DNA from: Akkermansia muciniphila
Lineage (GTDB): Bacteria > Verrucomicrobiota > Verrucomicrobiia > Verrucomicrobiales > Akkermansiaceae
DNA length: 41,511 nt
NCBI GenBank assembly: GCA_945873305.1
Contig: CAMCCX010000018.1
Coordinates: forward strand, 1-41,511
Direction: 5' to 3'
The position numbers and the translations under genes were made by a program. This document shows positions 1,684 through 36,201 of the stretch, one piece after another. The notes under the pieces are model-generated. The model had not been told where the DNA came from. It saw only the letters and a list, made by a program, of their open reading frames with translations, and did no database searches. How positions within the stretch are numbered: the first letter of the stretch is position 1; each line of letters starts with the position of its first letter.

Positions 1684-4641
1684 TCATTCAGGAGCTATAA
1701 AATCGCCTCTAAGTCGTGCGAAGAGTTTGCCATTCACTTCAAGAGACCGCGGAATGTAAACCCTCACCCGCTTCACCCCTTCCTCCGCGACAATTTCATC
1801 CGGCAGAATAACCACATCGTCAACTCCGTCATCAGCGATCCTCCACGGCGTCTTAAAATCAGCGCTCCACTCGACCTTGATGCTCACGGTTGGATCGACC
1901 CCAGCACGATCACTCCTCCGGTAGGTGAAGAGGAGATATTCCGAATTGGTCAGATCCCCGTCTGGATCGGCAAGGACGAGTTGGACCGTGGGTGACAGGT
2001 TCAGATCGTTGCGATTATCGGGATCTCCACCAATGATATATTCGATGATGTTTTTGATGCTGTCACCGTCGGTATCGATGGTCGGGTCCGCAGGGAGCGT
2101 GTTCTCGGCTAGCCAGTCGCGAAAGTCGCCAACTGGTGCGGGTGCCACCGTGATTTCGAGCGTCGCGTCGTCGAACTTGCCGGCGAGGTCGCTCACCCGG
2201 ATGGTGAAGCTGTTCGGGCCGACGTGGCTGTTAGCCGGCGTGCCGGACAGTGTGCCGTCGCTCGCCACGCCCAGCCAGGACGGGCCGGATTGCAGGCTGT
2301 AGCTCAGCGTGTCGCCCGCGTCGACGTCGCTGGCGGAACCGGCGACCGTGCCGACGTAGGCGGAGTCCTCGGTCGCGCCGGCTCCGGCGATCGGATCGGC
2401 GGTGAAGACCGGATCGTCGTTGGCGTTGACCACTGTGATTTCAAGCGTCGCGTCGGCGAACCTGCCGGCGAGGTCGCTCACCCGGATGGTGAAGCTGTTC
2501 GGGCCGACGTGGCTGTTAGCCGGCGTGCCGGACAGTGTGCCGTCGCTCGCGACGCCCAGCCAGGACGGGCCGGATTGCAGGCTGTAGCTCAGCGTGTCGC
2601 CCGCGTCGACGTCCGTCGCAGAACCCGCGACAGTGCCGACATAGGCGGCGTCCTCGGTCGCGCCGGCTCCGGCGATCGGATCGGCGGCGAAGACCGGTGC
2701 CTGGTTTGGCTGCCGACTTGTGGAGATGTGAAAGTAATCGATGAGCGCAGTGTGGGCTGCAGTGTGGTTGCCCACGTAGAGACCTGCGGCATGAACGAGC
2801 ATGTTCAGGGAGAATGGATCCTCAGGGATCCAGCCAGCGCCGTCTGAGGAATGAGCGATCACCCAGGAGTCGCCCGTGCGGGCAACCCGCATATACTTGG
2901 TTGTAGCCGTAATGCCATTGAAAATATGCACGGTCGGAACCGTATTCTCGAAACTGGCAACAAAGAGCTTAGTCGCCCTGCCGTCGTGATGAAATTCAAC
3001 GCGCAGCAGCCTGTCACCGTCACCCTCGATGATGATGCCCTGCATCTGGTAGCAACTTGTTAAATCCGAGTCAAACTTGGTCCCGATCACAAAATCCTCA
3101 TCGACCACCATCTGTGTTACCCTGGCCACATTGTATCCACCGGGCCACCATGTGTCATGATCCGTGTCGGCGGGCAAGGAAAGCGAGAGCTGTGAGCCGG
3201 TCATGGCCAGAGTCCCGTCACCCAGAGGATTGACGAAGGTCCAGAGGCCGGTATCCAGCAATGGCGAGTTGAATTCATCAGTCCCGGTGGTGTCGCCGCC
3301 CGAAACGGGGCTGAAAGACGCGGTGATCATTTTGTCTCCATCCATCACAAATGTGGCTGAACTGTCGGATCCACCAAGATCCCCGCTCCATCCGGAAAAC
3401 GTATGGCCACTCACAGGTTGTGCCTTCGCGGTCACGATCGTTCCATTCGGATAGATAGCCATATCAGGACTGAGAGTGACGGATCCACTCCCCAATACCG
3501 AGCTCTTGATTCCATGCACGAACTGGGAGGGAGGAACAATGGTGACATTGCCGAACGTCGCATCGACTTCGTGCGCGACGAGCAGGAGCGATCCACTCGA
3601 AAGATCATCGGCATCTTCCTGTCCCTCCAGCAGCCAGGAAATTGGCTCCGGAGTGCCGCTCTCCCAAATTTTGAACCGATAGCGACCGCCCCCATTTCCG
3701 GACGGAAGGGATTGCACCCTAGTCCTGGTCATATAAGTGACGTCAAAGCTTAATTGCTTGTATGTTGGGTCCAACAGATGGAGTCCATTTTCACCACCCA
3801 GCGAAAGCCGGCCCGAGCCATTGATAAAATACTCATTCCACCAAGTTGCCCCTTGGGGCCGCCAGCCAATCACCGGTTGCCATGGGCCTCCAAGCTGGCC
3901 GCCCCAGTCACTATGTCCCCGCCAACGCATGACCAAACCGAGGCCGGGACCAACACTGGTAGGAGATGAAAAACTCGCCGGATCAATGGCGTGGACCGTG
4001 ACAGGGACGGTGATTTCATAGTCCGTCCAGCCCATATCCCCGATCGCAAGGATGCGGTCGTAGCCCATGTGAAGTGGTCTGACACCCGCCGAAGAGAAGC
4101 CCCATTCCCCGTCAACTTCCTGCACCACATCCTGCAGATTCGTAACGGCTCCCCAATCAATCGAATATGACAGCGGCCATGGGGAATTGTTGCCAAAATG
4201 AATCGTCACCGTTGTCGTGCTGGTATCGCCAAGTTGGTCCTGCGCGGTGAGCACAACGGTATTGTTGCCTTGATTGAGATTGGTTACATCCAACTCGGCA
4301 TTGAAGTCGCCCGGGCGCGCCAGACGCCGCGTATCCGGCCCTATGGAGAGACTTCGAGACTGGCCGCCATTCAACGAATAAGTCAGCGAGGCCACTCCAT
4401 CAGGGTCTGAAACGGTTCCTAAAAGATTCACCCACCGCTGCGGCACGCCCAGATCGCCGAAGCTTTGAGTTGTGCCCCGCCAGACGTTGATGTTTGGTCC
4501 CGCGCCATTGTCAGCATGCAAAATCCCGCATGCGAATGACCAAAGTGCAAGCGCCACCGACAAGCCGGATTTCAATCCGAGCATCTCGGAAAAATCGAAA
4601 CATATCCGCTTATCGTCAGATTTTCGTGTGGTTATTTTCAT
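1684..4641 (-). CDS. Large secreted multidomain protein with tandem Ig-like repeats
   Basis: A 985-residue protein of unknown function. Residues 20-43 form a signal peptide with a likely cleavage after LHA. Next come an Ig-like segment with a 'VSDPDG' motif (about 50-150), a jelly-roll-like region (about 150-375) and an InlB/Listeria-type repeat with 'FSGWSGDL' (about 380-447). A DUF1349-like beta-sandwich (about 453-640) is followed by two nearly identical 95-residue putative-Ig (He_PIG, cadherin-like) modules at 649-743 and 744-838. The C-terminus carries 'DWLAENTLPADPTIDTDGDS' followed by an EY..GGDP motif, a tail common on exported Verrucomicrobiota proteins. No catalytic motif was recognised. 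It lies between a GT2 gene and wzx in the same direction, so a matrix, adhesin or glycan-binding role is plausible but inferred. The upstream spacer at 4642-4807 is AT-rich and may hold its own promoter. Confidence 0.8.
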   Translation of the reverse strand: MKITTRKSDDKRICFDFSEMLGLKSGLSVALALWSFACGILHADNGAGPNINVWRGTTQSFGDLGVPQRWVNLLGTVSDPDGVASLTYSLNGGQSRSLSIGPDTRRLARPGDFNAELDVTNLNQGNNTVVLTAQDQLGDTSTTTVTIHFGNNSPWPLSYSIDWGAVTNLQDVVQEVDGEWGFSSAGVRPLHMGYDRILAIGDMGWTDYEITVPVTVHAIDPASFSSPTSVGPGLGLVMRWRGHSDWGGQLGGPWQPVIGWRPQGATWWNEYFINGSGRLSLGGENGLHLLDPTYKQLSFDVTYMTRTRVQSLPSGNGGGRYRFKIWESGTPEPISWLLEGQEDADDLSSGSLLLVAHEVDATFGNVTIVPPSQFVHGIKSSVLGSGSVTLSPDMAIYPNGTIVTAKAQPVSGHTFSGWSGDLGGSDSSATFVMDGDKMITASFSPVSGGDTTGTDEFNSPLLDTGLWTFVNPLGDGTLAMTGSQLSLSLPADTDHDTWWPGGYNVARVTQMVVDEDFVIGTKFDSDLTSCYQMQGIIIEGDGDRLLRVEFHHDGRATKLFVASFENTVPTVHIFNGITATTKYMRVARTGDSWVIAHSSDGAGWIPEDPFSLNMLVHAAGLYVGNHTAAHTALIDYFHISTSRQPNQAPVFAADPIAGAGATEDAAYVGTVAGSATDVDAGDTLSYSLQSGPSWLGVASDGTLSGTPANSHVGPNSFTIRVSDLAGRFADATLEITVVNANDDPVFTADPIAGAGATEDSAYVGTVAGSASDVDAGDTLSYSLQSGPSWLGVASDGTLSGTPANSHVGPNSFTIRVSDLAGKFDDATLEITVAPAPVGDFRDWLAENTLPADPTIDTDGDSIKNIIEYIIGGDPDNRNDLNLSPTVQLVLADPDGDLTNSEYLLFTYRRSDRAGVDPTVSIKVEWSADFKTPWRIADDGVDDVVILPDEIVAEEGVKRVRVYIPRSLEVNGKLFARLRGDFIAPE
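2128..2697 (-). repeat. Tandem 285-bp coding repeat (two He_PIG-type modules)
   Basis: Two head-to-tail 285-bp units (2413-2697, then 2128-2412) encode two 95-residue Ig-like modules that differ at only about five residues. Long stretches are also identical at DNA level, including synonymous positions, so the duplication is recent or is being homogenised. The match fades in the last 15-20 bases of the left unit. Such units can expand or contract by recombination. Confidence 0.85.
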
Positions 4642-6927: not shown

Positions 6928-8343
6928 TCAGCGGGGATCGCCTAACGGGGCACCAGCCGCAGTATGCCACTTCTGGCGGTGCCATTCGGCGTTGGCCTGG
7001 GTGATCGCGGCGGGATCGGCGAGGGCCCCGGCGCTGATTTTATCGTCAAATTCCGAAGCCTCCGTGCCGATGCCCCCGGATTCCTGATTCAAATGCACGA
7101 TCGAGCAGATCGAGCTGATCACTGCGACACTCAGCCAAAAATAAAGCATCGATTGGTCAAAGTAGGCCACCGAGATGCTAGTCACGGCGTGGGAAAACAG
7201 GCATGCGCCGAAACACCAGATCATGAAGCTTTGGCTCGGCCACTCCGCCAGCCGCGTGTCGTGGATCTGGCCGACCCAGCGGAAGGCAACAAGCAACATC
7301 CAGATCACCAACAGCATCGCCGGCAATCCGGCCGTCACGCCGTGACCAATGTAGTAATTAGTGATATCGGTGTGATGGGGATCTCTTGCGATGCCTTGGT
7401 TTGGCATCCAGTGCCGGGTCTCGTCGGTGCCGAAAAGCCACCACTCGGACAGGTGGGAGAAAGTCTGTTCAATCAGGAATGCCCGGTGCCAACCCGTGCT
7501 GCCGCCCGAAATATCGATCCGGGAAATCAGGTAATACGGCGGCCTCGCCATCAAGAACATCAGCCCGACATAGAGTGCCACCGCGCCACCGCGCAATGCC
7601 TTGAGGCGGTCCTTGAATCGCCACAGCGCCAAGGCTCCGGCACCGGCGAGCAGGCTCATCACGGGACCGCTGGAAGCCGAGGTGAAAACAATGACGACAC
7701 CCGCTCCAATGCCAGCCATGGCCTCATGTCGATGGCGCTTGAGGATTCCTACGAATAGCGGGATGCAGGTTGCGCCCACGGTGCCGGCCAGGATCGGGTG
7801 GCGGAAAGGCCCCTGGGCCCGCAGTTTTCCCTCGCGAATCATGACGTAGTCCGGCACCCCGCCGAAAACCGCGAAACTGTTCCTGCCGGTGACCTTTTCG
7901 ATCGTCATCTCGATAGCGATCGGCACCATTAGCAGCGCCACGATCCGGATCACGTCGCTGACTTCTTCCAAATCAGCACACCAGATCCGTATCAGGAAAT
8001 AGATCAGAGTTTGATTGAAAACCAAGCCACAGGCATAGATCGGACCGGCCCGCTCCGGGTCGTGGAAAAAACTCGCGAACACCACCCAGACGCCCCATGC
8101 GATCATCAGTTTATCAATGAGATTGAAGCCACCCGGAAGCGACTCGCCCTTCGTGATCACCCGGATGACGCCGACGAGAAGCAGCATTCGGTAAATCGGC
8201 AGCGACAGCGGCCCCAGCTCGATTCCCTGCCCAAGCGTCATGTAGGTGCAGCCAAGCAGAAGCGGCACCGGTGCCCATTTGCGCGGCACCGCGAGCAAAG
8301 CCGTGGCGCAGATCATGAAGAAGCCCAGAGCTAACGGATTCAT
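6928..8343 (-). CDS. wzy: O-antigen polymerase/ligase family membrane protein (Wzy-like)
   Basis: A 471-residue polytopic membrane protein with about 10-12 predicted hydrophobic segments and one large periplasmic loop in the second half (around 'GTDETRHWMPNQGI' and 'DPHHTDITNYYIGHG'). That layout is typical of the Wzy/WaaL superfamily. A conserved-looking 'AQGPFRHPILAGT' segment precedes the loop; similar RxxxxxHP sequences occur in WaaL/Wzy proteins from polysaccharide loci. As the only such protein in a locus that also has Wzx and a Wzz-like co-polymerase, it is most likely the repeat-unit polymerase. A ligase role cannot be excluded from sequence alone. The last 45 residues are hydrophilic. 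The methyltransferase gene lies 47 bp upstream. Confidence 0.8.
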   Translation of the reverse strand: MNPLALGFFMICATALLAVPRKWAPVPLLLGCTYMTLGQGIELGPLSLPIYRMLLLVGVIRVITKGESLPGGFNLIDKLMIAWGVWVVFASFFHDPERAGPIYACGLVFNQTLIYFLIRIWCADLEEVSDVIRIVALLMVPIAIEMTIEKVTGRNSFAVFGGVPDYVMIREGKLRAQGPFRHPILAGTVGATCIPLFVGILKRHRHEAMAGIGAGVVIVFTSASSGPVMSLLAGAGALALWRFKDRLKALRGGAVALYVGLMFLMARPPYYLISRIDISGGSTGWHRAFLIEQTFSHLSEWWLFGTDETRHWMPNQGIARDPHHTDITNYYIGHGVTAGLPAMLLVIWMLLVAFRWVGQIHDTRLAEWPSQSFMIWCFGACLFSHAVTSISVAYFDQSMLYFWLSVAVISSICSIVHLNQESGGIGTEASEFDDKISAGALADPAAITQANAEWHRQKWHTAAGAPLGDPR

Positions 8344-10336: not shown

Positions 10337-11572
10337 TCAAGTCACCGTCTCTTGGCGCGGATTTCCCGCAGACCCGCCGGCCGTCGCCCGATGCCGATCG
10401 ACGATCTTGCGGTAGGTATCGAGCATCTTGCGGCCGGCCGACGCCCAAGTCAGCTCGCCCGAAGTCTCCAGAGAAGCCGCCCGCAAACGGGCTAGCAAGG
10501 CCCTATCTTCGTGGAGCCGGCTAAAATGGCTGGCGAGGGCCGCGACGTCACCGGTCCGATGCACCAACGCGTTTTTCTCGTGTTCGCAAACCGCGCCGGA
10601 GGAATCCGAGACCAAAAGCACGCTGCCAGCCCCTCTGGCATCGTAGGTCACCAAGGCGCTCCCTTCCTCGATGCTTGGCAAAACCATCACGTCGCTCGCC
10701 CGCATGACATCGGAAAGGTCCTTGCGGTATCCGAGCAGGCTCACGCTCGGATGGCCTAGCTGGGTTGAGAGTTTTTCGGCGTATCCCGGGATGAAGTCGC
10801 CAATAACAAGGAACTTGCCGTCGTGACAGGCGCTGGATTCCAGCCAAGCCTCAAGCGCGTAGTGCAGCCCTTTCCGGGGAGCGCAGCCGGCCGCGAACAA
10901 CACGGTCAATCCGGGTTTGTCACCGCCTGGCCCGGCGCGCGGATAGCAGGTGCTTGTATCAAAACCATACTGGAATCTCACCAACCTTTCCCGGGAAAAC
11001 CCGCGGTCCTCGAAGGTCCGCGCCACGAACTCTGACGGGCAGAACAGGTAGTCGGCCGCGTCGTATTCCTCTTCCTCACGCCTCAGATTCTCCGCGTTGA
11101 ACGCATGGGAATGGCCCGCTGGCATCTCAATCCCGAGCTTCTCACATTCCTTCTCTACCACCTCGAAAGCGAAACGGGTATGGGCATTGCAACGTTCCAA
11201 CACGGTCGGAATTCCCAGTTTTTTCGCCATGCGGAGGGTTTCCAAGGATCCCAGGGCAAATCCATGCACGATGTCAAACTCGGCCGCTATTTTGCGGAGC
11301 CGCCGGGCCACGATCCGGTCGTGAATCCTGCATGACCCCAAGCGTCCGAAGACTTTGTAGGGAATCCTTAATTTTCCCCGGCTCAGTGTCGGTCGCACCC
11401 GGATGCCGGATGGAAACGGCTTGTTGAGGACTCCGGGAAACACCGTCACTTCCGCACCGGCGTCGCGAAGGCCCATCACATGCTGCCAAGCGGCATAACA
11501 GATTCCGCCGGCTCCGATCTTATGCGGGAAACTGTATAGGACGCGAAGCGGGCTGTCGTTCTCGTTAGCCAT
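10337..11572 (-). CDS. Family 4 glycosyltransferase (GT-B fold)
   Basis: A 411-residue GT-B enzyme. The N-terminal half has the glycine-rich 'HKIGAGGICYAAW' loop. The C-terminal nucleotide-binding half has 'VLFAAGCAPRKGLHYALEAW', 'LLGYRKDLSDVMRASDVMVLPSI', then 'EEGSALVTYDARGAG'. The usual EX7E motif reads E-x7-D here, a conservative change at the second acidic residue. Retaining transfer from a nucleotide sugar to the growing lipid-linked unit is the family activity. The gene sits between the secreted CHB_HEX protein gene and wecE. The 125-bp spacer before it contains a long inverted repeat, so it may be partly uncoupled from the gene upstream. Confidence 0.87.
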   Translation of the reverse strand: MANENDSPLRVLYSFPHKIGAGGICYAAWQHVMGLRDAGAEVTVFPGVLNKPFPSGIRVRPTLSRGKLRIPYKVFGRLGSCRIHDRIVARRLRKIAAEFDIVHGFALGSLETLRMAKKLGIPTVLERCNAHTRFAFEVVEKECEKLGIEMPAGHSHAFNAENLRREEEEYDAADYLFCPSEFVARTFEDRGFSRERLVRFQYGFDTSTCYPRAGPGGDKPGLTVLFAAGCAPRKGLHYALEAWLESSACHDGKFLVIGDFIPGYAEKLSTQLGHPSVSLLGYRKDLSDVMRASDVMVLPSIEEGSALVTYDARGAGSVLLVSDSSGAVCEHEKNALVHRTGDVAALASHFSRLHEDRALLARLRAASLETSGELTWASAGRKMLDTYRKIVDRHRATAGGSAGNPRQETVT

Positions 11573-11697: not shown

Positions 11698-13995
11698 TCA
11701 CTGTCCGCGAATTCGAAGCCCTTGGGGTATCGGCGGTGTTTCAGCGACCAGTCCGTGATTTGACACCGCTTGACTGCCAATCGTCGCAATCAGCGCCATA
11801 TTGTTAAAACTCGCAAGCGACGCCTGCTCCAGGCGGAACGCGTAGTTCTGAGCGATGAGCACCGCCACGCCGCCATTGACCGACACGGTGACACTGTAGG
11901 TTTTTGCCGCGGTATCCACGATCATGCGGACGGAATAGACGTTACCGACAGAATACGGCATATCAACCAAGGCGGCATATCCGCCGCCATTGCGGACATC
12001 GATCTTGCCGCTGCTGTTGAAACGGACGATGCAGGCCAAGTCTGCGTAGCCAGTCACCGGGGTGACTCCGCCGAGGCCCACGACCGCATCGATATTGTTA
12101 GCCGAGGCGGCCATGTCGAATCCGTAGGTGAAAGCCCCCGTCCGGGGCCCGAACGCGACCGAAGCCCATGTTGGCGTGCCCACAACCGCACCGATCAAGT
12201 AGTTCCCGGTGGCTATCGAGCTTGAGGCGATGCCGGACTTGACCGCGATTGCTTTAATGGTGGTGGAAGCCGTAACGGACACCGGATTCACGTAAACCGG
12301 ACTGCTGGTGTTCGGGTCGCTGCCATCGGTGGTGTAGTGGATCGTCGCACCTGAGGTGCCGCTCGTCAGAGTAACCGACTGTGCGCCGGAATAGCCCCCC
12401 GGAGCCGGGCCAAAGATCGGCGGCACGGCCGTAAAGGCCAACTCCGCGGTCGTCACCCCACTGGGATCGACGCCAGTCGCATAGGCGACCGCTTTGATCG
12501 TCTTTGTGGATGATACTGCGATCGGCCCCGCATAGATCGGATCAGAGGTACCAGGCGTGACCCCATTGAGCGTGTAGCGGATCGTCGCGGAAGGCGTGGT
12601 GGTGGAGATTGTCACCGATTGAGGCGTGTCAAAATAGCCGCTTGAAGGTGTGATAGTCGGATTCACCGCGGATTGGGGCGGAGGGGTGATCGTGGCGCTT
12701 TGCTTGTGAGCGGCATACATTGCCGCAGTGAATGTCGCACCGTCCCCGGCCAAGGTGTGGAATCGCTCCATATAGGCAAATGCCGCGGGATGATTCCAAA
12801 CCGACTGCGCGCCCATCAAATAGGCCGCGAGCCACGGACCCATCATTGCCGGCCCAACCACCGAGCGGTAGGTGGCGCTCCAGCTTCGGTTGTCCTGAAT
12901 AGGCTCCCAGCGATGTCTGATTCCCCATTCCCCCATGCCCACATCTTCCTGCCGGTACTGTAAAAACTCACGTCCATACCAGCTGTCTCCAGGCGGGGCG
13001 ACCCAGATCACGCGACCGACATCACTCTGCGTCACTATCCATACCTGCGTGTCTTCCTGGAAAATATCAGGGTTACCGGCCATCGCCTTCAATTCCGTGT
13101 CATTGAGCATCATCGCGGCGAGCACCAGCGGAAGCTTGCGGCCGCACTTGTGCCCGCCATCATGGTAGAATCCGCCCCCGTGCTTGACGTAGGCGTAGAT
13201 ATCCAGGCCGTTCTGCACCATCTGGATAGCGATGGCCTGCTTGTCGGCAAGCGGTTGATTGGTATTCAGCCATAATCCCACCTGACCGAATTTGGCGGCG
13301 GTCTCGCGGCCATATTGCTTGTCACCATCCGCGGTATTGTCTTTAGGCTGGAGGCTGTTTCCAGACCAGATTGGTGCCCATTCGAACCAAGGAAGCGGGG
13401 GCACTTGAGCCGCGATCGTGGCTTTGGAAGGAGTCGATGCGACCGCCGTGTAATTCTTGAGCACCGCCCAATTCAACTGGCTGACATTCCATTTCACCGT
13501 CCGGTCGGCCCCAAAAATGCTGGGGCGAAAGCTGCCAACCGGGGGCGCGCTACCTAGAACCGTGAGCGCGCATACGGTCTTCAAAAAGGTCGGATACGCC
13601 CCTCCCTGGCAATTGGCCGATACGAGCACGTCATTCACCTGCAGGTTGATCGGGAAAGAAAGGGCGACGTTCTTTGCCGCTTGGTAGCTGACGGCGGAGG
13701 AGATTGACGGATGGCTGTCGAAGCCAAAAGCCGTGTTCGGGATCGGATTGATCATCGAACCATGTTGCACCCCGCTCACACTCTGGGTCGGATTTGGATT
13801 GATGTTGGTGATCGTCACCGGTCCGATGACCCACGGCTCGCCGTTCGCGAAGGTCCCAGTAGGACGATCCGACGAAAAGGTCCACGTGATTCCATAATGG
13901 GACACCGAACTCGCCGCGGATGCTGGAATCTGCAGCAAGCAACCGAGTGCGATGGTAGGTAAAAGTCGCTTTGTAAAATATATCAACGAGTTCAT
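11698..13995 (-). CDS. Secreted protein with chitobiase/hexosaminidase C-terminal-like repeats (CHB_HEX)
   Basis: A 765-residue exported protein with a signal peptide at residues 1-28 (cleavage near ASA). An N-terminal beta region (about 30-210) opens with 'SHYGITWTFS'. A central, probably helical region (about 215-430) has 'GGGFYHDGGHKCGRKLPLVLA' type sequence and 'QEDTQVW'. Two CHB_HEX-like modules follow (about 440-520 and 523-600, with 'ATIRYTLNG' and 'ATIHYTTDGSDP'), then a C-terminal jelly-roll-like domain (about 605-750, with 'IVRFNSSGKIDVRNGG'). The central part resembles toroid-type polysaccharide lyases in motif density, but no catalytic set was confirmed. It is clearly paralogous to the protein at 31130-33385. 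Its place inside the cluster suggests a role on the surface glycan. Confidence 0.8.
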   Translation of the reverse strand: MNSLIYFTKRLLPTIALGCLLQIPASAASSVSHYGITWTFSSDRPTGTFANGEPWVIGPVTITNINPNPTQSVSGVQHGSMINPIPNTAFGFDSHPSISSAVSYQAAKNVALSFPINLQVNDVLVSANCQGGAYPTFLKTVCALTVLGSAPPVGSFRPSIFGADRTVKWNVSQLNWAVLKNYTAVASTPSKATIAAQVPPLPWFEWAPIWSGNSLQPKDNTADGDKQYGRETAAKFGQVGLWLNTNQPLADKQAIAIQMVQNGLDIYAYVKHGGGFYHDGGHKCGRKLPLVLAAMMLNDTELKAMAGNPDIFQEDTQVWIVTQSDVGRVIWVAPPGDSWYGREFLQYRQEDVGMGEWGIRHRWEPIQDNRSWSATYRSVVGPAMMGPWLAAYLMGAQSVWNHPAAFAYMERFHTLAGDGATFTAAMYAAHKQSATITPPPQSAVNPTITPSSGYFDTPQSVTISTTTPSATIRYTLNGVTPGTSDPIYAGPIAVSSTKTIKAVAYATGVDPSGVTTAELAFTAVPPIFGPAPGGYSGAQSVTLTSGTSGATIHYTTDGSDPNTSSPVYVNPVSVTASTTIKAIAVKSGIASSSIATGNYLIGAVVGTPTWASVAFGPRTGAFTYGFDMAASANNIDAVVGLGGVTPVTGYADLACIVRFNSSGKIDVRNGGGYAALVDMPYSVGNVYSVRMIVDTAAKTYSVTVSVNGGVAVLIAQNYAFRLEQASLASFNNMALIATIGSQAVSNHGLVAETPPIPQGLRIRGQ

Positions 13996-14093: not shown

Positions 14094-15017
14094 TCAATCG
14101 GTGGCAGGGGTTTCAGCGGGATGAACTCTCCGGAGTTTCCCAATTCGCCGCAAAGTCCTCATTTTCAAAGGCTTTCTGGATGCAATCAAGTGGCGGCTCT
14201 TCGTGACCGCATCACTCATCGCGCGATGAAACTCGGCAAGGTGCCCCCCCTTGAGCGCCTTGAGAAATTGGAAAATGACACGGGGCGCCAAGAAGGCGAC
14301 ACACTTCGGAAGAGGAAAACACGAAACCGCCAGCAGCACTTGATTCCGCGGCTTGTAAAACACTTGGATTTCGCTTCTCCGCGAGACTTCATCGGCGTGG
14401 TGCACGACCTTGAAATCGGGGCGGTAAATGATCGAACCGCCGGCGTCCAGGACCCGTAAAGCAAGCGCCACCTCCTCATAGTGCATATAGAGAATCTCGG
14501 GATAAAGACCCGCCTCGATCAAAACTTCCCGTCGGAAGGCGTATGCCGTGCCGCTGAAATAATCCGTCTCGAAGCGGAGATCGCTTCCCCGCGCGCAGGG
14601 GACCGGGTGCCACCAGCGCGGGGCGTCATCCGCACGTCCGTCGGTCGAGAGAATCCGCAGCGCGAAACCGCTTGCGTCCGGTGATTCGGCGAAGGCCTGC
14701 CTCACCTTTGCCAGCAGGTGATGGTCAGGCACCGTGACATCGCAATCGAAGCCGACCACGAACTCACCGCGAGCGGCGCGAATTCCCCGGTTGCGTGCGA
14801 CGCAGGGCCCTCCGTTGGAATCATTCACCAGAAGGGACACCTGCGGAAACTCGCGTCGCACCGCCTCAGCGGTGTCATCGGCTGACGCGTCATCCACCAC
14901 GATCACTTCAAAGTCAGCTCCTTCCTGAGCGCGGACATCCCGCAGCAACTCCAGGACGCGCTCTTTCCTGTTATAGGAAGGAATGACAATGCTGATCATG
15001 GGCGGTTCAAAACTCAC
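14094..15017 (-). CDS. Family 2 glycosyltransferase
   Basis: A 307-residue GT2 enzyme with 'ISIVIPSYNRKERVLELL' at the N-terminus, 'VIVVDDASADDT' and 'GGPCVARNRGIRAA'. The DxD-type site is 'GFDCDVTVPD', and 'YMHYEEVALALRV' stands at the acceptor-positioning motif. Some similar enzymes carry a C-terminal hydrophobic patch as here ('VAFLAPRVIFQFLKAL'), which suggests membrane association. The start is a GTG whose first bases overlap the stop of the next upstream gene as GTGA (15014-15017). An internal ATG at 14999 is the alternative. Coupling with that gene implies that the two transferases act in the same repeat-unit assembly. Donor and linkage are unknown. Confidence 0.86.
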   Translation of the reverse strand: MSFEPPMISIVIPSYNRKERVLELLRDVRAQEGADFEVIVVDDASADDTAEAVRREFPQVSLLVNDSNGGPCVARNRGIRAARGEFVVGFDCDVTVPDHHLLAKVRQAFAESPDASGFALRILSTDGRADDAPRWWHPVPCARGSDLRFETDYFSGTAYAFRREVLIEAGLYPEILYMHYEEVALALRVLDAGGSIIYRPDFKVVHHADEVSRRSEIQVFYKPRNQVLLAVSCFPLPKCVAFLAPRVIFQFLKALKGGHLAEFHRAMSDAVTKSRHLIASRKPLKMRTLRRIGKLRRVHPAETPATD

Positions 15018-15979
15018 CTGAGTTCGCTCGATGCCGGGCGGTCATCCAGACCGGGGTATCCTTTGAGCCACTCGTCTCGCCTGCTCCACAGCGTTTGCCA
15101 CCTCCCGGCCGCTTCCGGCGGGCGACTCAGGGAAGCGAGCGAACTCACTGTCGCGCGCAGTCCCGTGCCTGCCATCAGCAGGAACAAGCCGAGCGCCCTT
15201 GGGCCCCCCTTCCAATGGCGCCTCACCAAAGATGCCTTGCCGCGATACAGCAACATCGTCTTGTGAACCGGCGACTCCGAACTCCGGCCCACCTCGTGAA
15301 TCAACTTGGCGTCCGGACAAATGACCGGGCGGTATCCAAGCGCCCTCGCGCGAAGCGCGAGATCCACATCCTCTCCATACATGAAGTAGCACTCGTCGAG
15401 GCCGCCGAGTTCCCGCCAGACAGCGGACGAAGCGAGCAGGAAGCAACCGGTGACAACCCCGACCTCACGCACGCTGTCACGCTGCCACCCCCCCAACGAT
15501 TCAGGGTCGAGCCAGCGATTCCTCGGAGCCAGGGTAGTGATCCCGAAGGCGAAAAGCGCCATGCTCCAAAGGGTGGGTGCGCCCCAGCACGAGGAGGGCT
15601 CCAGGCTGCCGTCAGGCTTGAGGGTCCGCCCGCCGTAGAGTCCGTGGCACGGCTGTTTGCCCGCAAACTCGACAAGCACGTCCACCGCGTTTTCGAGGAT
15701 CACGGTATCGGGATTGAGCAAGAGCACGTATTCCGCATTCGAGTGATTCACCCCGAGGTTCACGCCCTTCGCAAAACCGAGGTTCTCTCCCGGCAGCACC
15801 AGTTCCACTTCCGGGAAACGATTCCGGACAAGCGCCACGGTGCCGTCCCGCGACTTGTTATCCACCACGATGACTTGCTGCGTTACGCTCCTCCTCTGGG
15901 CGAACACGCTCGTGAGGCAGGCCTCGATCTGCTCCTCGGAATTATACGTCACGATGACGATGGCGACCTTGGATTTCAT
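15014..15979 (-). CDS. Family 2 glycosyltransferase, rhamnosyltransferase-like
   Basis: A 321-residue GT2 enzyme. The N-terminus is 'VAIVIVTYNSEEQIEACL', followed by 'IVVDNKSRDGT', 'NLGFAKGVNLG' and 'VLLLNPDTVI'. Then come 'VTGCFLLASSAVWRELGG' and 'YGEDVDLALRARALG', the arrangement seen in WbbL/RfbF-type rhamnosyltransferases and relatives. The ATG at 15979 is chosen: it has an AGGGT ribosome-binding-like sequence just upstream and overlaps the acetyltransferase stop as ATGA. A longer frame reaching 16147 encodes a Gly/Arg-rich run antisense-like in character and is rejected. A C-terminal hydrophobic segment ('ALGLFLLMAGTGLRATV') may anchor it to the membrane. Rhamnose as donor is only a family-level guess. 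Confidence 0.88.
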   Translation of the reverse strand: MKSKVAIVIVTYNSEEQIEACLTSVFAQRRSVTQQVIVVDNKSRDGTVALVRNRFPEVELVLPGENLGFAKGVNLGVNHSNAEYVLLLNPDTVILENAVDVLVEFAGKQPCHGLYGGRTLKPDGSLEPSSCWGAPTLWSMALFAFGITTLAPRNRWLDPESLGGWQRDSVREVGVVTGCFLLASSAVWRELGGLDECYFMYGEDVDLALRARALGYRPVICPDAKLIHEVGRSSESPVHKTMLLYRGKASLVRRHWKGGPRALGLFLLMAGTGLRATVSSLASLSRPPEAAGRWQTLWSRRDEWLKGYPGLDDRPASSELR

Positions 15980-16524
15980 ACCCTGGCGATTTGACCGGCT
16001 TCCTGACGTTGCCCCACGACTCTGGCCGGCACTCCCGCCGCGATGCAGTCGGCCGGCAAATCCCGGGTCACCACCGCTCCGGCACCCACGATGCAGCCGT
16101 CGCCCACCGTCACTCCGGCAGTGACCACCACCCCGGCGCCCAACCACACGTCATTGCCGATCCGGATGTCGCGCTCCAGTCTGGGCTGCTCCCGAAACGG
16201 AAGCCCGGACACGAATTGATAATCTGAAGCCGTTATGAAAACCCCGGGAGCGAGTGACACATGGTCGCCTATCTCAATGCGGCCCGTCGTATCACCCGCC
16301 CACAGGAAACAACGCTCCCCGACATGACAGCCACGGCCCATTCGGATGCGCTCGCCATTCCGCAAGGAAACATTCGGCGCGATCCCGGTGCCCTCACCCG
16401 CCTGCAGCCGCCGCCGCGGCCGCACATGGCTGTAACCATAATAATGGATCAAACGGAACAAGTGAACATAAGAACGTGGATCGCACGCCGATGCGATGGC
16501 ATTGATCCACGCGGGAATTTTCAT
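15976..16524 (-). CDS. Left-handed beta-helix acyltransferase (WcaF-like O-acetyltransferase)
   Basis: A 182-residue hexapeptide-repeat protein. From about residue 50 the sequence shows the [LIV]-G-x4 periodicity: 'IRMGRGCHVGERCFL', 'IEIGDHVSLAPGVFIT', 'IRIGNDVWLGAGVVVTAGV' and 'GCIVGAGAVVTRDLP'. It closes with 'IAAGVPARVVG', as in NodL/WcaF/CysE-type acetyltransferases. The predicted role is acetyl-CoA dependent O-acetylation of a sugar in the repeat unit. The first 45 residues are helical and contain an aromatic 'RLIHYYGYSHVRPRRR' segment that could sit on the membrane. It overlaps the following GT2 gene by 4 bp and lies 23 bp after the PssE-like gene. Confidence 0.86.
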   Translation of the reverse strand: MKIPAWINAIASACDPRSYVHLFRLIHYYGYSHVRPRRRLQAGEGTGIAPNVSLRNGERIRMGRGCHVGERCFLWAGDTTGRIEIGDHVSLAPGVFITASDYQFVSGLPFREQPRLERDIRIGNDVWLGAGVVVTAGVTVGDGCIVGAGAVVTRDLPADCIAAGVPARVVGQRQEAGQIARV

Positions 16525-16547: not shown

Positions 16548-17033
16548 TCAGCTCTTGCTGGAGAAAATGAAATCACGGATGCCGGACAACAGGCTGTCGC
16601 TGGCGAAGCCGCCGATCTTCCGCCCGCTTGCCAGATCATCCAGGCGATCGAGTTTTGCCCGCAGCTCCTGCTCGTCGAACGCCACATTCACGCCGCCAAC
16701 CTCCATCATCCGGCGGGCGGTGGCAGTCTGGTGCTCGTTGCGGTGCTCCCCGAGACTCGCCTTCTTCGGCATCACCAAAATCGGCTTCCCTTGATACAAC
16801 GCGGTGAGAATCGTCCCCATCCCCGCGTGCGAAACAATCACACTGGCCGAAGTGAAATATTCCGCAAACTCCTTTGGCGGCAGGAAATGGGCGAACCGCA
16901 TGTGCCGCGGCTCCCACCCGCCCTCGCCGATCTGGGCGAACACGTCCCGCCGACCGGTCTCGCCGGCCCAATCATCCACCACCCGAACCATCCGGTCGAA
17001 CGGCAGGTCTGTTCCGACAGTGACGAGTATCAT
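16548..17033 (-). CDS. pssE: Glycosyltransferase catalytic subunit, PssE/Alg13-like
   Basis: A 161-residue protein corresponding to the nucleotide-sugar-binding C-terminal half of a GT-B (GT28-type) enzyme. It begins 'MILVTVGTDLPFDRMVR'. The conserved donor-site region is 'VSHAGMGTILTALYQGKPILVMPKK', followed by 'GEHRNEHQ'. In PssD/PssE, Cps14F/G and eukaryotic Alg14/Alg13, this small soluble part pairs with a membrane-anchored partner to form one active transferase. That partner is encoded directly upstream and overlaps by 4 bp (ATGA). By family analogy the pair would add the second sugar (for example glucuronate, galactose or GlcNAc) to the undecaprenyl-linked primer. The exact sugar is not known. 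Confidence 0.85.
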   Translation of the reverse strand: MILVTVGTDLPFDRMVRVVDDWAGETGRRDVFAQIGEGGWEPRHMRFAHFLPPKEFAEYFTSASVIVSHAGMGTILTALYQGKPILVMPKKASLGEHRNEHQTATARRMMEVGGVNVAFDEQELRAKLDRLDDLASGRKIGGFASDSLLSGIRDFIFSSKS

Positions 17034-17488
17034 AAAACGCTTCCTAAAAATCGCGGGCCATTCTCACGCGCCAAATGCGCCCATTGCGTCAGCCAAAGGT
17101 CGGAAAACGCACCGGCCATGTCGCCGGACATCGAAAGTCCCCCGGCATTAGCCACGCTATCCACCCAAATCACGCGCGCTCCCATCCACTTCCCGAATCT
17201 CGCTCCGAAATACCCGGGAGCCGCGCCCGTCGTGATCACGATGTCCGGCCTGACCCGCAAGAGGAGACAGATGATTCCGAGAGCCGAGCGCACCAAGTTG
17301 AGCTTACTCCAGCGGTTCGCGTCGTGGATCACGTGGAATTCGGCATCGCCGACATCCGCGCGGCAGCCTCCCCTAACGGTCGCGTAGGTCACGTCACAGC
17401 CCGCGAAGGCGGGCCGCAAGCGGAGCAGTTGGACCCAATGTCCTCCGCCGGAAGAAATCGCCAATACTTTCTGGGGAGAGGCCGACAT
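17030..17488 (-). CDS. pssD: Glycosyltransferase membrane-anchor subunit, PssD/Alg14-like
   Basis: A 152-residue partner of the PssE-like protein. It starts with 'KVLAISSGGGHWVQLLRLRPAF', the Alg14 signature of glycine-rich loop plus helix, and continues with 'DVTYATV', a hydrophobic 'SALGIICLLLRVRPDIVITTGAAPGY' helix/strand and 'VIWVDSVANAGGLSMSGDM'. In the family this half recruits the catalytic half to the membrane and contributes the acceptor site. The stop overlaps the PssE-like start as ATGA. The gene starts 12 bp after the stop of the full-length phosphoglycosyltransferase, which suggests that this heterodimer performs the step right after priming. Confidence 0.86.
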   Translation of the reverse strand: MSASPQKVLAISSGGGHWVQLLRLRPAFAGCDVTYATVRGGCRADVGDAEFHVIHDANRWSKLNLVRSALGIICLLLRVRPDIVITTGAAPGYFGARFGKWMGARVIWVDSVANAGGLSMSGDMAGAFSDLWLTQWAHLARENGPRFLGSVL

Positions 17489-17500
17489 CGCGTTTCCAAG

Positions 17501-18943
17501 TCAAGATGCTCCCCGGCTGAACAGAACGGCGGGGATGGTTTCCAAGAGGATTTTCAAATCAAGCCACAGCGACCAGTTCTCGACGTATTCGTGATCCATC
17601 TCCATCCAGCGGTCGAAGGAGACGTTGTCACGCCCACTGACCTGCCAAATGCAGGTGACGCCCGGCTTGACCGACAGGCGCTTGCGGTAGAGCCACTCGT
17701 AGCGCGTCACTTCCTCCGGCAGGGGCGGACGAGGGCCCACAAGGCTCATTTCCCCGCACAGGACATTGAACAACTGGGGCAGCTCGTCGATGCTGGTCCT
17801 GCGGAGAAACCTGCCGATCCAAGTGGTGCGGGGGTCCTTCTCGATCTTGAACACCGGACCGTCCCTCTCGTTCAGATGCTGAAGCGCCGATTTGCGCTCC
17901 TCGGCGTCAACCACCATGGAGCGGAACTTGTAGAGCTTGAACTGGCGTTGATTCATCCCCACGCGGTTCTGCGCGAATAACACAGGCCCGGAACTTGTCA
18001 GCTTGATGAGCACGGTCACCAGAACCAGAAAAGGAAACAGAGCAACCAACGCGGCCAGTGAGACCGTCGCGTCGATCAACCGCTTTGCCAACAGCTGCAT
18101 CAGCAATTGCTCCCTGAACAAGGTCACGACATACTCATCCTCGAATTCCTCGATGTGCATGCTCTTTAACAAGGCTCCGTCCGCGATCTCCGGCATGAGA
18201 CGAACCACGATTCCCAAATCGCGGGCGTGTTGCACGATCATCGTGATGTCACTGAAGCGCGCATCCACGGGGAGGCAGACGACAATCTCGTCAACCCGCT
18301 CCGCAATCAGGATTTCCCGCAGGTTTCCGAGAAGACCGAGCACTTTCCATGTTCCGTGCTCCCGCGATTCCCATTCCGCCATAGCCTCTGGATTTTCAGC
18401 CACGAATCCATCAATCTTGTACCCGAGTTCCGGCCTCTCATCGATCTTGATAGCCGTTTGGAGGGCACGCTCGCTCGCCCCTATCACAAGCAGGTAGCGG
18501 TAATTGTAACCCGAACGCCTGAAACCTAGCAGCAACAGGCGCAGAAGCAGTCGGCTCACGACCCCGACAGCGGTGACCACCGCGAAAAAAATCAGAACAT
18601 TGAAGATGTTGAGGCTTTTGACCGAGAAGACGGTGCAGATGATCATCAACCAGAACGCGGCGGCTCCTGTTGCCTTCACCAGATTTTTCAACTGGGTATT
18701 GAGAGCGACCAGGCGGTCCGCCTTGTAGCGGATGAAGTAGTCGAAAATCCCGACCCATCCGACGGCAAGGATGAGCATGCCGATCGCGTCTTCAAGGTGG
18801 AAGGTCGCGTCGAGGAGGTGGCTCCCCCCCTGCATCACGATTTCAGGGCGGAAGAAGATGATGATTGCGGCCGTGGCGATCAGGACCAGCTGATCGAACA
18901 GCCGGAACATGTGGATCAACAACTTATGGCGAAGCCTGATCAT
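17501..18943 (-). CDS. Full-length polyprenyl glycosylphosphotransferase (WcaJ/WbaP-like)
   Basis: A 480-residue initiating sugar-phosphate transferase. The N-terminal half holds four or five membrane helices (about residues 10-125) and a Rossmann-like CoA-binding domain ('[18 protein letters not shown]', about 145-260). The C-terminal catalytic sugar-transferase domain (about 285-480) starts with the re-entrant hydrophobic helix '[28 protein letters not shown]'. It continues with '[13 protein letters not shown]', '[11 protein letters not shown]', '[26 protein letters not shown]' (with the DE dyad) and '[12 protein letters not shown]'. It transfers a sugar-1-phosphate onto undecaprenyl phosphate at the inner membrane. 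A second, shorter enzyme of the same family is encoded at 22898-23866. The gene lies between the co-polymerase and pssD. Confidence 0.92.
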
Positions 18944-19024: not shown

Positions 19025-21271
19025 TCATGTTCCTCCGATCACCCAGCCGGGGACATGCGCTCGCGTCTTGTTAAAAACACAAGACACATCCGCCCTTCCC
19101 TTGACCAGCTCGGAGTAACCCCACTTCAAGGCGTCGCGGCTGGTATTCTCGGCATCCAGAACCAAGATCACCTTATCCATCAGGCCCGCCATGGTGAGCG
19201 TGCGGCTGGTCTGGTCGACAGCCGGCATGTCAAAGATGATATAGTCAAATTCGCTGGCCTGCAGCTCGGGCATGAGCTCATAGAGGTGATGGGGCGTGAA
19301 TGTCGTCAATCCACTATCATCTCTCCGGGCCATGGCACTCGCGTAATAGAGCTTCTGCGGGCTTTTCCTGAAGTTGGAATGATTTGCCACATGCAAGGCC
19401 CCGTTGAGCGAATGCCGTGGCACTTCCCCCAGCAACGGGCTGTCTTCCGGGTGATATGAACTCAGGTCGACGAGCAAGACCTTCGCGCCCTTGATCTCCG
19501 AAAATGATTTCGCCAGTCCTGCGGCGATGGTCGAGGCGCCGGCACCTTCCGACAAGCCGGTAACAGCCACCAGCTTGGGCTTGTGGGTCACATTGTTGAT
19601 TTCAAAATTGAAAACGACGCGGTCGCGGATTGCTTCCGAATAGGGCAAAATGAAGTGATTCGCCTTTCTCACGCCACATGTGAAAGAGTCCTGGTTGATA
19701 GTAGCCGGAAGCTCCGGGTTCTCGCCCTGTGCGATCCGTGGCTTTCCGGACTCATGGGAAAGCATCAGCCCTCCACGGTTTTTCGCCCGGATGTATGGAA
19801 TCACCAGCAGAAGGGGCAACTGAAGGCGGGTCTGAATCTCGATGGGCCGTTTGATTCTTGGGTTGAAGAGCAGTTCGATCATGAATGCAAGGCCCACTCC
19901 AATCACCATTCCTCCGCCAGCCAGCCCGAGAATAATTTTTTGGACTTTCTTGTCATAGGTCCGGATCGGTTCGGTTGGCTGCTGGACTACCGTGATGTTC
20001 GGCATCCTCGAAGGGTCGAGCGTCTGATCGACTTTGGCGTTCTTCAAGTTCGCCTCAAGCGAGCGGTATTCGGCGTCTTCCATCTGTTTGCGGCGATCCA
20101 TCTCCTCGATTTGCGCGCCGATAGCGTATTGCCGGCCGAACTGCTCGGTGATTTCCTGAAGATGGGTATCGAACATTGCGATTTTCGCAGTGACAGACGC
20201 GAGGCGCGCCTTTTCCATGATCAGGTTCCATGCGGGATTATCGGCATTCTTCTCCAAGACCTCCGACTCTGCGGCGAGCCCAGGGTATCGAACAACCAAG
20301 TCCCGCCGCTTCCCGTCGTAGGTGCTGATTTGCCGCTGGTTGTTGGCTAGCAGCGGGTTCCCTGGCTTGAATTTGAGGTGCAGATCCATGTCCCGCTTTT
20401 GCAAGAACCCGAGCATTTCCATAACCGTCCGGTATTCGGTAATCACCTGTGCTGGCGGCGGGTCGCTCGTGTCCTTGGAGGATTCGCCCCCCTTTGGGAG
20501 CTCGTCCCCGTTGGCGAAGGTCTTTCCGAGTGATTCGATGCCCGCCTTGCGCTCGGCGAACTCGGCCTTGGCATTCATCAAGTCTTCCTGGGTCTTGGCC
20601 CGCTGGGACAGCAGGGCGCTGGTCGCGTCCGCCAATGACAAGATTCCCGAATCAGTTCTGAGCATGTTCAGCTGCTTCTCGGTTTCTTTCAAACGCTCAC
20701 GCACCTCCTCCGCCTGTTTCGCGACCAGATCAAACGCGGCGGCCGAGCGGTGAATCTCCAGGTGCTTTTCGAAATAGCGCTCGACGATTTCCCTCAGCAC
20801 TTTCTTTGATAGTTCCGGATCCGGGCTTCCATACACGACGCGAAGAACGTTGCCGCTCTGTCCGAGACCTACTTGCATGTCATCAATAATACTGCCTGCC
20901 GCATGCGACAGGGTGACCTTTCCCAAAAAATCAGGGACCACGACGTCGGCGCCGATTTTCCCGGCGACCTCCAAAGCGAGATCCTTGCTCGTGAGAATTT
21001 CGATTTCCGTATTGATGACGCTATCGCCGGCAATGATATTCGGGCGTGAGGAATCCTGGAAGGTGTCCTCCGACGCTCTTTCCAGCACATAGCGGACGAG
21101 CAGCTTGGCCTCGGATTGATAGATCGGAGGCCTGGTCAAATAGACGGCGGCGGCGGCACCGAGGCCCAGCAACGAGAGCAGGACAATCATCCATTTGTGT
21201 TTGAACACCACAAACAAGACATCCTGCACGCCGAACGCCTCCGCGGAGGCCTGTGGTTGGGATTTTTGCAT
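19025..21271 (-). CDS. Wzz/Wzc-like polysaccharide co-polymerase with degenerate kinase domain
   Basis: A 748-residue protein built like a GumC/ExoP/Wzc protein. The first membrane helix is near residues 28-48, with the 'RPPIYQSEAKLLV' Wzz motif after it. A long periplasmic part with coiled coils (about 180-240 and 330-425) leads to a second helix (about 445-470, 'ILGLAGGGMVIGVGLAFMIE') and a cytoplasmic ParA/BY-kinase-like domain from about 550. The Walker A loop reads GLSEGAGAST, where the invariant Lys of GEGK[ST]T is Ala. Walker A' reads 'VLLVDLSS' without the second Asp, and Walker B is 'YIIFDMPA'. There is no C-terminal tyrosine cluster. It should control chain length together with Wzy, but autokinase activity is doubtful. 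'Tyrosine autokinase' would be a misleading name. Confidence 0.88.
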   Translation of the reverse strand: MQKSQPQASAEAFGVQDVLFVVFKHKWMIVLLSLLGLGAAAAVYLTRPPIYQSEAKLLVRYVLERASEDTFQDSSRPNIIAGDSVINTEIEILTSKDLALEVAGKIGADVVVPDFLGKVTLSHAAGSIIDDMQVGLGQSGNVLRVVYGSPDPELSKKVLREIVERYFEKHLEIHRSAAAFDLVAKQAEEVRERLKETEKQLNMLRTDSGILSLADATSALLSQRAKTQEDLMNAKAEFAERKAGIESLGKTFANGDELPKGGESSKDTSDPPPAQVITEYRTVMEMLGFLQKRDMDLHLKFKPGNPLLANNQRQISTYDGKRRDLVVRYPGLAAESEVLEKNADNPAWNLIMEKARLASVTAKIAMFDTHLQEITEQFGRQYAIGAQIEEMDRRKQMEDAEYRSLEANLKNAKVDQTLDPSRMPNITVVQQPTEPIRTYDKKVQKIILGLAGGGMVIGVGLAFMIELLFNPRIKRPIEIQTRLQLPLLLVIPYIRAKNRGGLMLSHESGKPRIAQGENPELPATINQDSFTCGVRKANHFILPYSEAIRDRVVFNFEINNVTHKPKLVAVTGLSEGAGASTIAAGLAKSFSEIKGAKVLLVDLSSYHPEDSPLLGEVPRHSLNGALHVANHSNFRKSPQKLYYASAMARRDDSGLTTFTPHHLYELMPELQASEFDYIIFDMPAVDQTSRTLTMAGLMDKVILVLDAENTSRDALKWGYSELVKGRADVSCVFNKTRAHVPGWVIGGT

Positions 21272-25529: not shown

Positions 25530-25559
25530 ATCATTAAGACATCGCCTGTTTGGAGTCAA
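25530..25559 (-). promoter_or_regulatory. Candidate sigma70-type promoter of the beta-barrel gene
   Basis: Minus-strand TTGACT (25554-25559) and AATGAT (25530-25535, four of six to the -10 consensus) are separated by 18 bases, and lie about 27 bp before the ATG at 25503. The leader contains AGGAA at a suitable distance from the start. The arrangement matches the candidate upstream of the glycosyl cluster. Confidence 0.42.
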
Positions 25560-25651
25560 CATCATTAGCGTCTGCGGGCGCGTTCCGCAAGCGTGCCTGG
25601 CTCCACCTAACCAAATCGGGCCGCGCCGGCGGGCGCTCCGCGGCGGCGCGT

Positions 25652-26422: not shown

Positions 26423-26575
26423 GGGAAATTTCGCCGCGGGGCGGGCAGCGGCATAGCGGGAAAATTCCGTTCGTGCCAGTGCAAGCTGGCGAAATCTGAC
26501 GCAGGAAATCGCATTTCATCAGCGGAAATGGCCGTTTTCTTCCGTCGTCGGGATGCCATGGTAATTTCGCGGCCG

Positions 26576-27613: not shown

Positions 27614-27651
27614 CCCTTCCCGAACATCCCGCGCGGCGCGGCAGATCCAAA

Positions 27652-28792: not shown

Positions 28793-28902
28793 GCGGGCGG
28801 GAAGAAACGCGATCCGGCGAGATGACGCAAGGCGGAACGTGAAATCGGGCATTTCGAGCCCACCTCGCCACGGAGGAGCGATCCGAGCGGTGATGGCAGC
28901 GG

Positions 28903-30231: not shown

Positions 30232-30255
30232 CGGGGAAGTTTGTGAGTCATTATG

Positions 30256-30270
30256 TCCTTTTTAAAAGGA
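30256..30270. promoter_or_regulatory. 15-bp palindrome upstream of the ATPase gene
   Basis: TCCTTTTTAAAAGGA has perfect 7-bp arms around one central base. It lies 25 bp upstream of the ATPase ATG and about 120 bp before nth. It could be an operator for either gene, but AT-rich palindromes of this size can also occur by chance. Confidence 0.3.
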
Positions 30271-30392
30271 GAAAATTGAGGGTCGGCGACCGGTGATCGC
30301 CGAGTCGGATCCAACCTCGCAGCAGCCAGCGTTTTCGCATTTCAGGAGGCAAAACGATTGCAGGTTCGCCACAAGCCCCGGAAACTCGCCGC

Positions 30393-31019: not shown

Positions 31020-31129
31020 GTTTCAACCACTCGCGCCCGGTTCCAAAAACCCCTTGGCAAGGGGGAAAGGCCGCTTACCGTTTTATGGTTCCTCCTTGAG
31101 GTTTTCGTATTTCATCCGCGCCATATCCC

Positions 31130-33385: not shown

Positions 33386-33440
33386 CGATCATTCGCCGCC
33401 GCGCTTGCATTCAGTCGTGAAAAGGCTTCGATCGGCCGGA

Positions 33441-36167: not shown

Positions 36168-36201
36168 GGTTCCCCTGAAAAAAATCCAAATCTCAACAAG
36201 T

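Follow-up and report, generated by a model that had tools for sequence, protein, structure and literature searches.

The gene at 11698-13995, its paralogue and their family

Contig CAMCCX010000018.1 of Akkermansia muciniphila (assembly GCA_945873305.1), all 41,511 nucleotides of which were analysed and are here termed the window, carries two related genes for secreted-looking proteins, one of them inside a cluster for exopolysaccharide (EPS) assembly, and it is the role of the N-terminal domain of their products that concerns us. The gene of interest is an open reading frame for 765 amino acids (aa) at 11698-13995, correctly placed by the original prediction, which was made from the letters alone; its strand needs correcting to minus, with the forward frame having stops and the reverse being open. 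The paralogue, of 751 aa, lies on the plus strand at 31130-33385. That these are two related frames about 17 kb apart is confirmed, the separation being about 17.1 kb and BLASTP giving 29% identity over 612 aa (E 5e-55). A second BLASTP alignment, which takes in one CHB_HEX module as well as the C-terminus, has 44% identity over about 250 residues, and the C-terminal domains alone are 45% identical. No further copies were found in the organism's own 3.06-Mb assembly.

Both proteins have a putative signal peptide (recognized by eye), an N-terminal domain of about 405 residues (N-domain), CHB_HEX sequence, a C-terminal domain and a short tail. In the gene product, with everything on the minus strand, the signal peptide ends ...PASAA; the unclassified family domain, protein residues 30-435 (P0030), occupies 12691-13908 and is divided into a predicted beta-sandwich (13546-13908) and helical domain (12691-13545); two CHB_HEX_C_1/Fn3_assoc modules follow at 12208-12660 (two Pfam stretches, E 4.4e-37, the best being residues 530-596 and the limits of the first module being approximate), then the C-terminal domain, about residues 600-750 (11746-12198), which occurs also behind other N-terminal domains, and finally the tail PPIPQGLRIRGQ at 11701-11736, of the type P-x-x-P-x-(G/N)-(L/V)-(R/K)-(V/I). 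By BLASTP and Pfam the paralogue has an equal architecture but one CHB_HEX module, its family domain being at 31217-32569 and its tail starting at 33344 (33344-33382). The modules had been predicted for both proteins, as Pfam bears out; PF13290 scores 126.3 and 64.3 bits against a cut-off of 22, though these are accessory modules only and the N-domain is outside them. The blocks 'GITWTFS' and 'EDTQ' that had been picked out as shared are present in both (the latter as QEDTQVW versus HEDTQCYY), and 'GGGxxxxGRKxP' is a genuine common block but too loose as a pattern: the two sequences are GGHKCGRKLP and GGGVTNGRKFP, and the family consensus is GGHxxGRKxP (two L074 pieces were dropped before it was derived). 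The C-terminal domain is likewise common to both, but its jelly-roll nature is a proposal, the one match being a sub-threshold one to Sialidase-like_CBM (PF22585) at E 0.005 and 17.1 bits, below the cut-off of 27.

No curated family matches the N-domain: scanning 24 members with Pfam and NCBIfam gave nothing above any cut-off, and a sequence-profile search of the PDB with it had zero matches at E up to 10, which supports the suggestion of a new family. The literature searches made listed no paper on one like it. Family members are present in 12 of 288 genomes in an even draw of the phylum, and a search of GTDB contigs with a 24-sequence alignment (A1) yielded 325 encoding stretches. The 80 of these most similar to the gene product, many of which end at contig edges, were fetched with their surroundings; their record titles, from metagenome-assembled genomes, name Planctomycetota (38), Verrucomicrobiota (15), Spirochaetota (6) and Pseudomonadota, Chloroflexota and Bacteroidota (3 each), plus others. 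One of the labels of L060 (Pseudomonadota) and L042 (Planctomycetota) may be wrong, since the two are 82% identical in a beta-helix region. It is to such a region that the family domain is fused in L042 and L044 (PF13229 scores 31.0 bits on L044, above the cut-off of 25.9, and 25.4, just below it, on L042), and in other relatives there is fusion to CBM_6, LamG, CHB_HEX and dockerin modules.

Conservation of the shared polar blocks is strong. Among 116 cellular members (P0030 numbering) R128, Q232 and D236 are invariant; Y199 and R257 are each kept in 115, Y347 and R348 in 114, D64 in 113, E285 in 111 and H253 in 82.

The exopolysaccharide cluster and the slot beside Wzy

The neighbouring genes given coordinates in this paragraph are on the strand of the gene of interest. 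Adjoining it are those for a glycosyltransferase (GT) of type GT4 (10337-11572) and one of type GT2 (14094-15017); beyond the latter come a second GT2-type enzyme with an uncertain start codon (15014-16147), a hexapeptide-repeat acyltransferase-like protein (15976-16524) and the two halves of a two-part glycosyltransferase. The PssE/Alg13-like half (16548-17033) matches the NCBIfam models PssE (E 8e-27) and WelK (E 6e-22) below their cut-offs and Pfam Glyco_tran_28_C above; the PssD/Alg14-like half (17030-17488) matches NCBIfam PssD (E 9e-16) below cut-off and Pfam Alg14 above. Then follow a priming polyprenyl glycosylphosphotransferase (17501-18943; TIGR03025, 389 bits against a cut-off of 295.6) and a Wzz-type chain-length determinant with a kinase-like C-terminus (19025-21271), for which Pfam Wzz is above its cut-off and the NCBIfam chain-length and autokinase models are below theirs. 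On the other side are a Wzy-like polymerase/ligase of the O-antigen ligase family (6928-8343; Wzy_C, E 2.7e-5, below cut-off) and a Wzx-like polysaccharide flippase (152-1627; Polysacc_synt_3, E 1.8e-71), and DegT aminotransferases are present in the cluster also. The gene thus has the position expected of an EPS-cluster-encoded depolymerase, namely within a polysaccharide assembly cluster.

The order Wzz, priming transferase, Alg14/Alg13-like pair, acyltransferase, GT2, GT2, gene of interest, (GT4) and Wzy recurs in Verrucomicrobiota, and related arrangements are found in Planctomycetota as well as in two records that carry a Pseudomonadota title. With at least two marker classes taken to define an EPS locus, 27 of the 80 fetched stretches are such loci versus none of 20 control stretches (p 8e-4), a share that may be biased upwards because the 80 are the closest to the gene product among the 325; the controls come from three family-bearing genomes and are separate from the genomes of the 80 save for one common Lentisphaerota contig. 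By group the figures are 9 of 15 for Verrucomicrobiota, 14 of 38 for Planctomycetota and 4 of 27 for the others. On a tree with 116 rows (a quick method with SH-aLRT only, from which L194, L200, L201 and domain pieces shorter than 300 aa were left out) the EPS label needs 18 changes versus 34.8 when shuffled, at least 15 by the starred branches, and because of these changes we take the association to have been gained or lost repeatedly. For that count the paralogue was scored 'EPS', being in the same window, and was relabelled for the residue counts only; the census stretches L120, L129 and L130, repeats of named loci, were dropped from the tree and from the neighbour-gene count.

Within the genus, the tie is to one polymerase. 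Among 73 genomes the family is present in 16, this Wzy in 17 and both in 15 (Fisher p 1.4e-12, kinship being ignored), and in every one of the 15 double-positive genomes they share a contig and lie no more than about 4.5 kb apart. The copy in the single family-only genome (G298) is of the paralogue type. In the two Wzy-only genomes (G299 and G347) the slot between GT4 and GT2 is filled by an unrelated N-domain, A4, followed by the same C-terminal domain and tail. In the phylum draw Wzy is present in seven of the 288 genomes. The family occupies the slot in the organism's own genome, G215 and G223; the other N-domain, again with the same C-terminal domain and tail, does so in G178 and G251, which are outside the genus; and G139 and G177 have beta-helix-like proteins near Wzy, these occupants being a retrospective choice of the large protein of secreted appearance in that region. 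That of G177, a genome which also has family copies on another contig, scores 34.4 bits with PF13229 (cut-off 25.9); for that of G139 no match of the PF13229 type was found with Pfam, and it is related to the region of beta-helix type that L042 joins to the family domain (27% identity over 457 aa, E 5e-19). The tally for 22 distinct Wzy-bearing genomes is 16 with the family, four with the other N-domain and two with a beta-helix-like protein. No genome in the phylum draw has both the family and the other N-domain, and no homology was seen between A4 and the family domain. A4 was itself suspected by eye of being a beta-helix, an idea that was dropped.

Phage relatives, predicted fold and candidate function

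Foldseek against viral models gave two strong matches (E 5e-27 and 3e-26), both to nameless entries, and tblastn found relatives in 22 of 50,697 phage records: 20 from Mycobacterium phages grown on M. smegmatis (one phage twice) and two from Microcystis phages. An earlier scan of viral contigs with the whole protein, using exact short peptides, detected no relative and is judged too insensitive since the annotated phage collection did hold some. The relative in Halley, 706 aa with a LamG module, is annotated as a minor tail protein, and its gene is the last of the minor-tail block, with lysin A two genes further on; that in Mwe-JY25 (1171 aa) is annotated as a carbohydrate esterase and adjoins a tail-fibre gene. 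D64, R128, Y199, Q232, D236, H253, R257, Y347 and R348 are kept in both proteins, with E285 being D in one.

AlphaFold2, with 89 sequences, predicts for the N-domain a beta-sandwich (about residues 1-120) with helices thereafter, at a predicted local distance difference test score (pLDDT) of 94.0 and a predicted template modelling score (pTM) of 0.94; the helical part modelled alone has pLDDT 92.6. By title, carbohydrate enzymes make up 26 of the 37 Foldseek rows for the helical part, several of these repeating one protein and all at E > 1. VIA aligns this part with ExoMA2 at Z 4.5 (193 aligned, root-mean-square deviation (rmsd) 4.9) and with hyaluronate lyase B at Z 4.0 (137 aligned). The neighbours from PL8, PL33, GH8, GH9, GH94, GH116 and GH127 are of the (alpha/alpha)-barrel fold class; their Z values against the helical part are below 5 and all E above 1, homology is claimed to none, and the comparisons hint at an (alpha/alpha) arrangement without amounting to a match. 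Rows for complement C5, antibody and fibronectin structures were set aside as common arrangements. (Alpha/alpha)-toroid lyases (PL5, PL8, PL15, PL33 and the like) have a catalytic Tyr/His with an Arg/Asn/Gln neutralizer in one cleft. Residues of that type, Y199, Q232, R257, Y347 and R348, are conserved here, as is H253 in its 82 members, as judged by sequence position only.

Putting this together, we consider it rather probable that the N-terminal 405 or so residues are a secreted polysaccharide-cleaving enzyme, perhaps a lyase, that acts on the cell's own EPS, because of the fusions to binding modules, the fusion to and replacement by beta-helix-like proteins, the phage tail location and the tie to one polymerase; replacement by unrelated modules together with the phage tail occurrence suggests cutting or remodelling of polysaccharide. 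The enzyme would be exported through its signal peptide, the CHB_HEX and C-terminal domains would hold the polysaccharide, and the N-domain, a beta-sandwich with a perhaps (alpha/alpha)-toroid-like helical domain, would cleave the EPS of the neighbouring Wzy pathway, resulting in chain-length trimming, clearing of misrouted polymer or cell release. Uronate lyase is the likeliest chemistry given the PssD/PssE-like pair, which resembles glucuronosyltransferases, together with the conserved set of Tyr, His, Arg and Gln residues, yet preferring a lyase to a hydrolase is a guess. The analysis shows the family, its conservation, its gene neighbourhood, its replacement by other modules and its occurrence among phage tail genes; that the domain is an enzyme, which polymer it acts on and by what chemistry, where it resides and what it does for the cell are what we infer. 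Family copies outside EPS loci may have a catabolic role. The observations of the original prediction are partly confirmed, and its interpretation, in which one copy may have been recruited to trim, bind or release the polysaccharide of the cluster, is partly supported; action of the other copy on environmental glycans is a conjecture.

Several findings pull in the other direction. Fifty-three of the 80 fetched relatives do not show the two marker classes of an EPS locus, and in the phylum draw an EPS-located copy is present in only three (own, G215 and G223) of the 11 genomes whose surroundings were seen (own plus 10, with G229 and two G151 contigs, C19 and C103, left out), the other eight having none; the predicted recurrence of homologues in glycan-assembly loci holds against the controls and is thin across the phylum. 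Foldseek against the PDB gave nothing significant, the best E being 0.64 for the whole domain and 1.3 for the helical part, and the best VIA value for the whole domain, Z 4.7 with a PL8 hyaluronate lyase (148 aligned, rmsd 4.3), is by the tool's guidance possibly just a common arrangement, so that a toroid fold of the polysaccharide lyase (PL) or glycoside hydrolase (GH) kind is weakly supported. Position 187, usually H in the family, is Q in the gene product, and several conserved positions are lost in phage: H332 in both proteins, K258, D286 and W9 in Mwe-JY25 and R382 in Halley. Annotation of the Mycobacterium phage genes is mostly 'hypothetical', with that of Redno2 being lysin A. A uronic acid in the polymer is suggested and no more, because the PssD/PssE matches are below the NCBIfam cut-offs. 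Beta-helix and LamG modules are found in adhesins too. As for the alternative occupant of the slot, G088 has A4 twice, outside EPS loci and without the C-terminal domain, and we call A4 unassigned because it matched nothing in Pfam or in a PDB profile search, nor did hhalign relate it to the beta-helix regions of the fusions.

The alternative that fares best, though we think it unlikely, is that the N-domain is a glycan-binding or matrix protein, such as a lectin, adhesin or polymer anchor, which fixes EPS to cell or matrix without cutting, like RbmA, RbmC and Bap1 of Vibrio biofilms, which PMC11637428 names. The many binding-module fusions suit it, no enzyme fold match is significant, and the tail, present on slot proteins of unrelated kinds, might serve as an anchor. 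Structural proteins with beta-helix and LamG domains do exist. Against this, near-invariant Arg, Gln, Asp and Tyr residues across several phyla and phages exceed the usual needs of binding, and fusion to or replacement by beta-helix-like proteins fits an enzyme, without proving one. A distinctly improbable alternative has the N-domain modifying the polymer, for example as a C5-epimerase, deacetylase or transglycosylase, with the slot receiving interchangeable tailoring enzymes: some beta-helix proteins are epimerases and the Mwe-JY25 protein is annotated as a carbohydrate esterase, though it has no Pfam match, but the phage tail-gene location suits cleavage better and no known tailoring fold was matched. 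Least probable, by a little, is that a catabolic enzyme feeding on environmental glycans sits beside Wzy by chance, as the eight phylum genomes with the family outside EPS loci and the six closely spaced copies of G177 away from its Wzy contig might be read, since the same Wzy accompanies the family in 15 genomes, the same slot is used in different lineages and the linkage arose or was lost repeatedly.

The favoured reading, cleavage of the cell's own EPS, has precedents of a kind. EPS operons commonly hold a hydrolase or lyase gene, according to PMC9894940. RbmB, the VPS lyase of the V. cholerae biofilm cluster and predicted to be a beta-helix (PMC11637428), is similar in being a secreted polysaccharide cleaver encoded beside the genes for the same EPS, and its predicted fold recalls the slot proteins of G139 and G177. 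It differs in having another fold than the family domain, with cleavage known for RbmB and predicted here. The alginate lyase AlgL is, according to PMC9894940, similarly a lyase linked to EPS biosynthesis. Against its structure 7sa8 the helical part scores Z 3.1 (172 aligned), a weak likeness that is not a significant fold match. AlgL is without the N-terminal beta-sandwich and CHB_HEX modules. The likeness to phage tail depolymerases lies in the two phage relatives among minor-tail and tail-fibre genes, and these are known by annotation only. As background, Pontiella (class Kiritimatiellae) produces a sulfated glycosaminoglycan-like EPS (PMC7356697).

A wider proposal, offered tentatively and with some doubt, is that the domain represents a new cleaving-enzyme family with a new fold combination, common to EPS clusters and phage tails, and that in one type of EPS cluster it is among at least three interchangeable secreted modules near Wzy, most of which end in one short tail that would act as a new signal for sorting or docking EPS-processing enzymes. 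If the domain is an enzyme it probably founds a new carbohydrate-enzyme family. For the EPS made by Verrucomicrobiota and Planctomycetota, which has been little characterized, an unannotated family that marks the clusters offers a handle; presence in phages of Microcystis and M. smegmatis makes function directly testable, and by exchanging unrelated modules in a single place nature itself probes what that place is for.

The short tail and neighbouring observations

The proline-rich tail fits 18 of the 22 slot proteins, across differing preceding domains, those of G215, G223, G334 and G353 not fitting; of the family's 15 slot copies in the genus, only six have the common C-terminal domain. A strict tail expression, composed after five tails were known, finds 11 distinct frames among 9420 (overlapping loci included), all 11 being family or slot proteins. 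A relaxed expression gives 21 of 30, which is not an independent test because it too was composed after the tails were known. In the organism's own genome the tail pattern matches 30 times, and a long frame stops within 14 codons of the match in the two family proteins only; for one other match (L250) the stop comes 18 codons later, beside a contig end, and the case is ambiguous. The tail may mark proteins for sorting or docking; alternatively, given its resemblance to the first strand of an fn3 domain, it may be a remnant of such a strand.

In the form P-x-x-P-x-(G/N)-(L/V)-(R/K)-x the tail is common to the two window sequences, L203, L204 and L226-L229, behind unrelated domains. A third unrelated N-domain, with no Pfam or PDB match, precedes the same C-terminal domain in G335 (L210, 1-1974), and adjoins a protein that by eye resembles a glycoside hydrolase. 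At L058 (8333-9646) a 438-aa frame upstream of the family gene in an EPS locus has an end that looks beta-helix-like and a similar tail. The EPS cluster of the window has at its end (1684-4641) a large secreted-looking protein with Ig repeats and a sub-threshold match to DUF1349, which is in some sister clusters too. In eight loci (L039, L042, L066, L072, L080, L083, L094 and L101) a protein of about 259 aa, by eye like the exosortase-associated EpsI protein, is encoded within six genes of the family gene and on the opposite strand every time. In the Lentisphaerota genome G177 the six family copies crowd into about 62 kb (L129-L132, on G177:C29 at about 82-145 kb), a contig distinct from the one with the Wzy locus.

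A single conserved neighbourhood, which is not an EPS locus, surrounds the paralogue and both of its relatives (about 89% identity). It spans 25550-37590 in the window, is kept in two other genomes of the genus (L191 and L192) and consists of a decarboxylase/regulator-like unit, the paralogue, a helicase and an oxidoreductase; here and elsewhere the neighbour names AhbB, helicase, GFO_IDH, DUF1080, sulfatase and MIP are labels given by eye and not family-search results.

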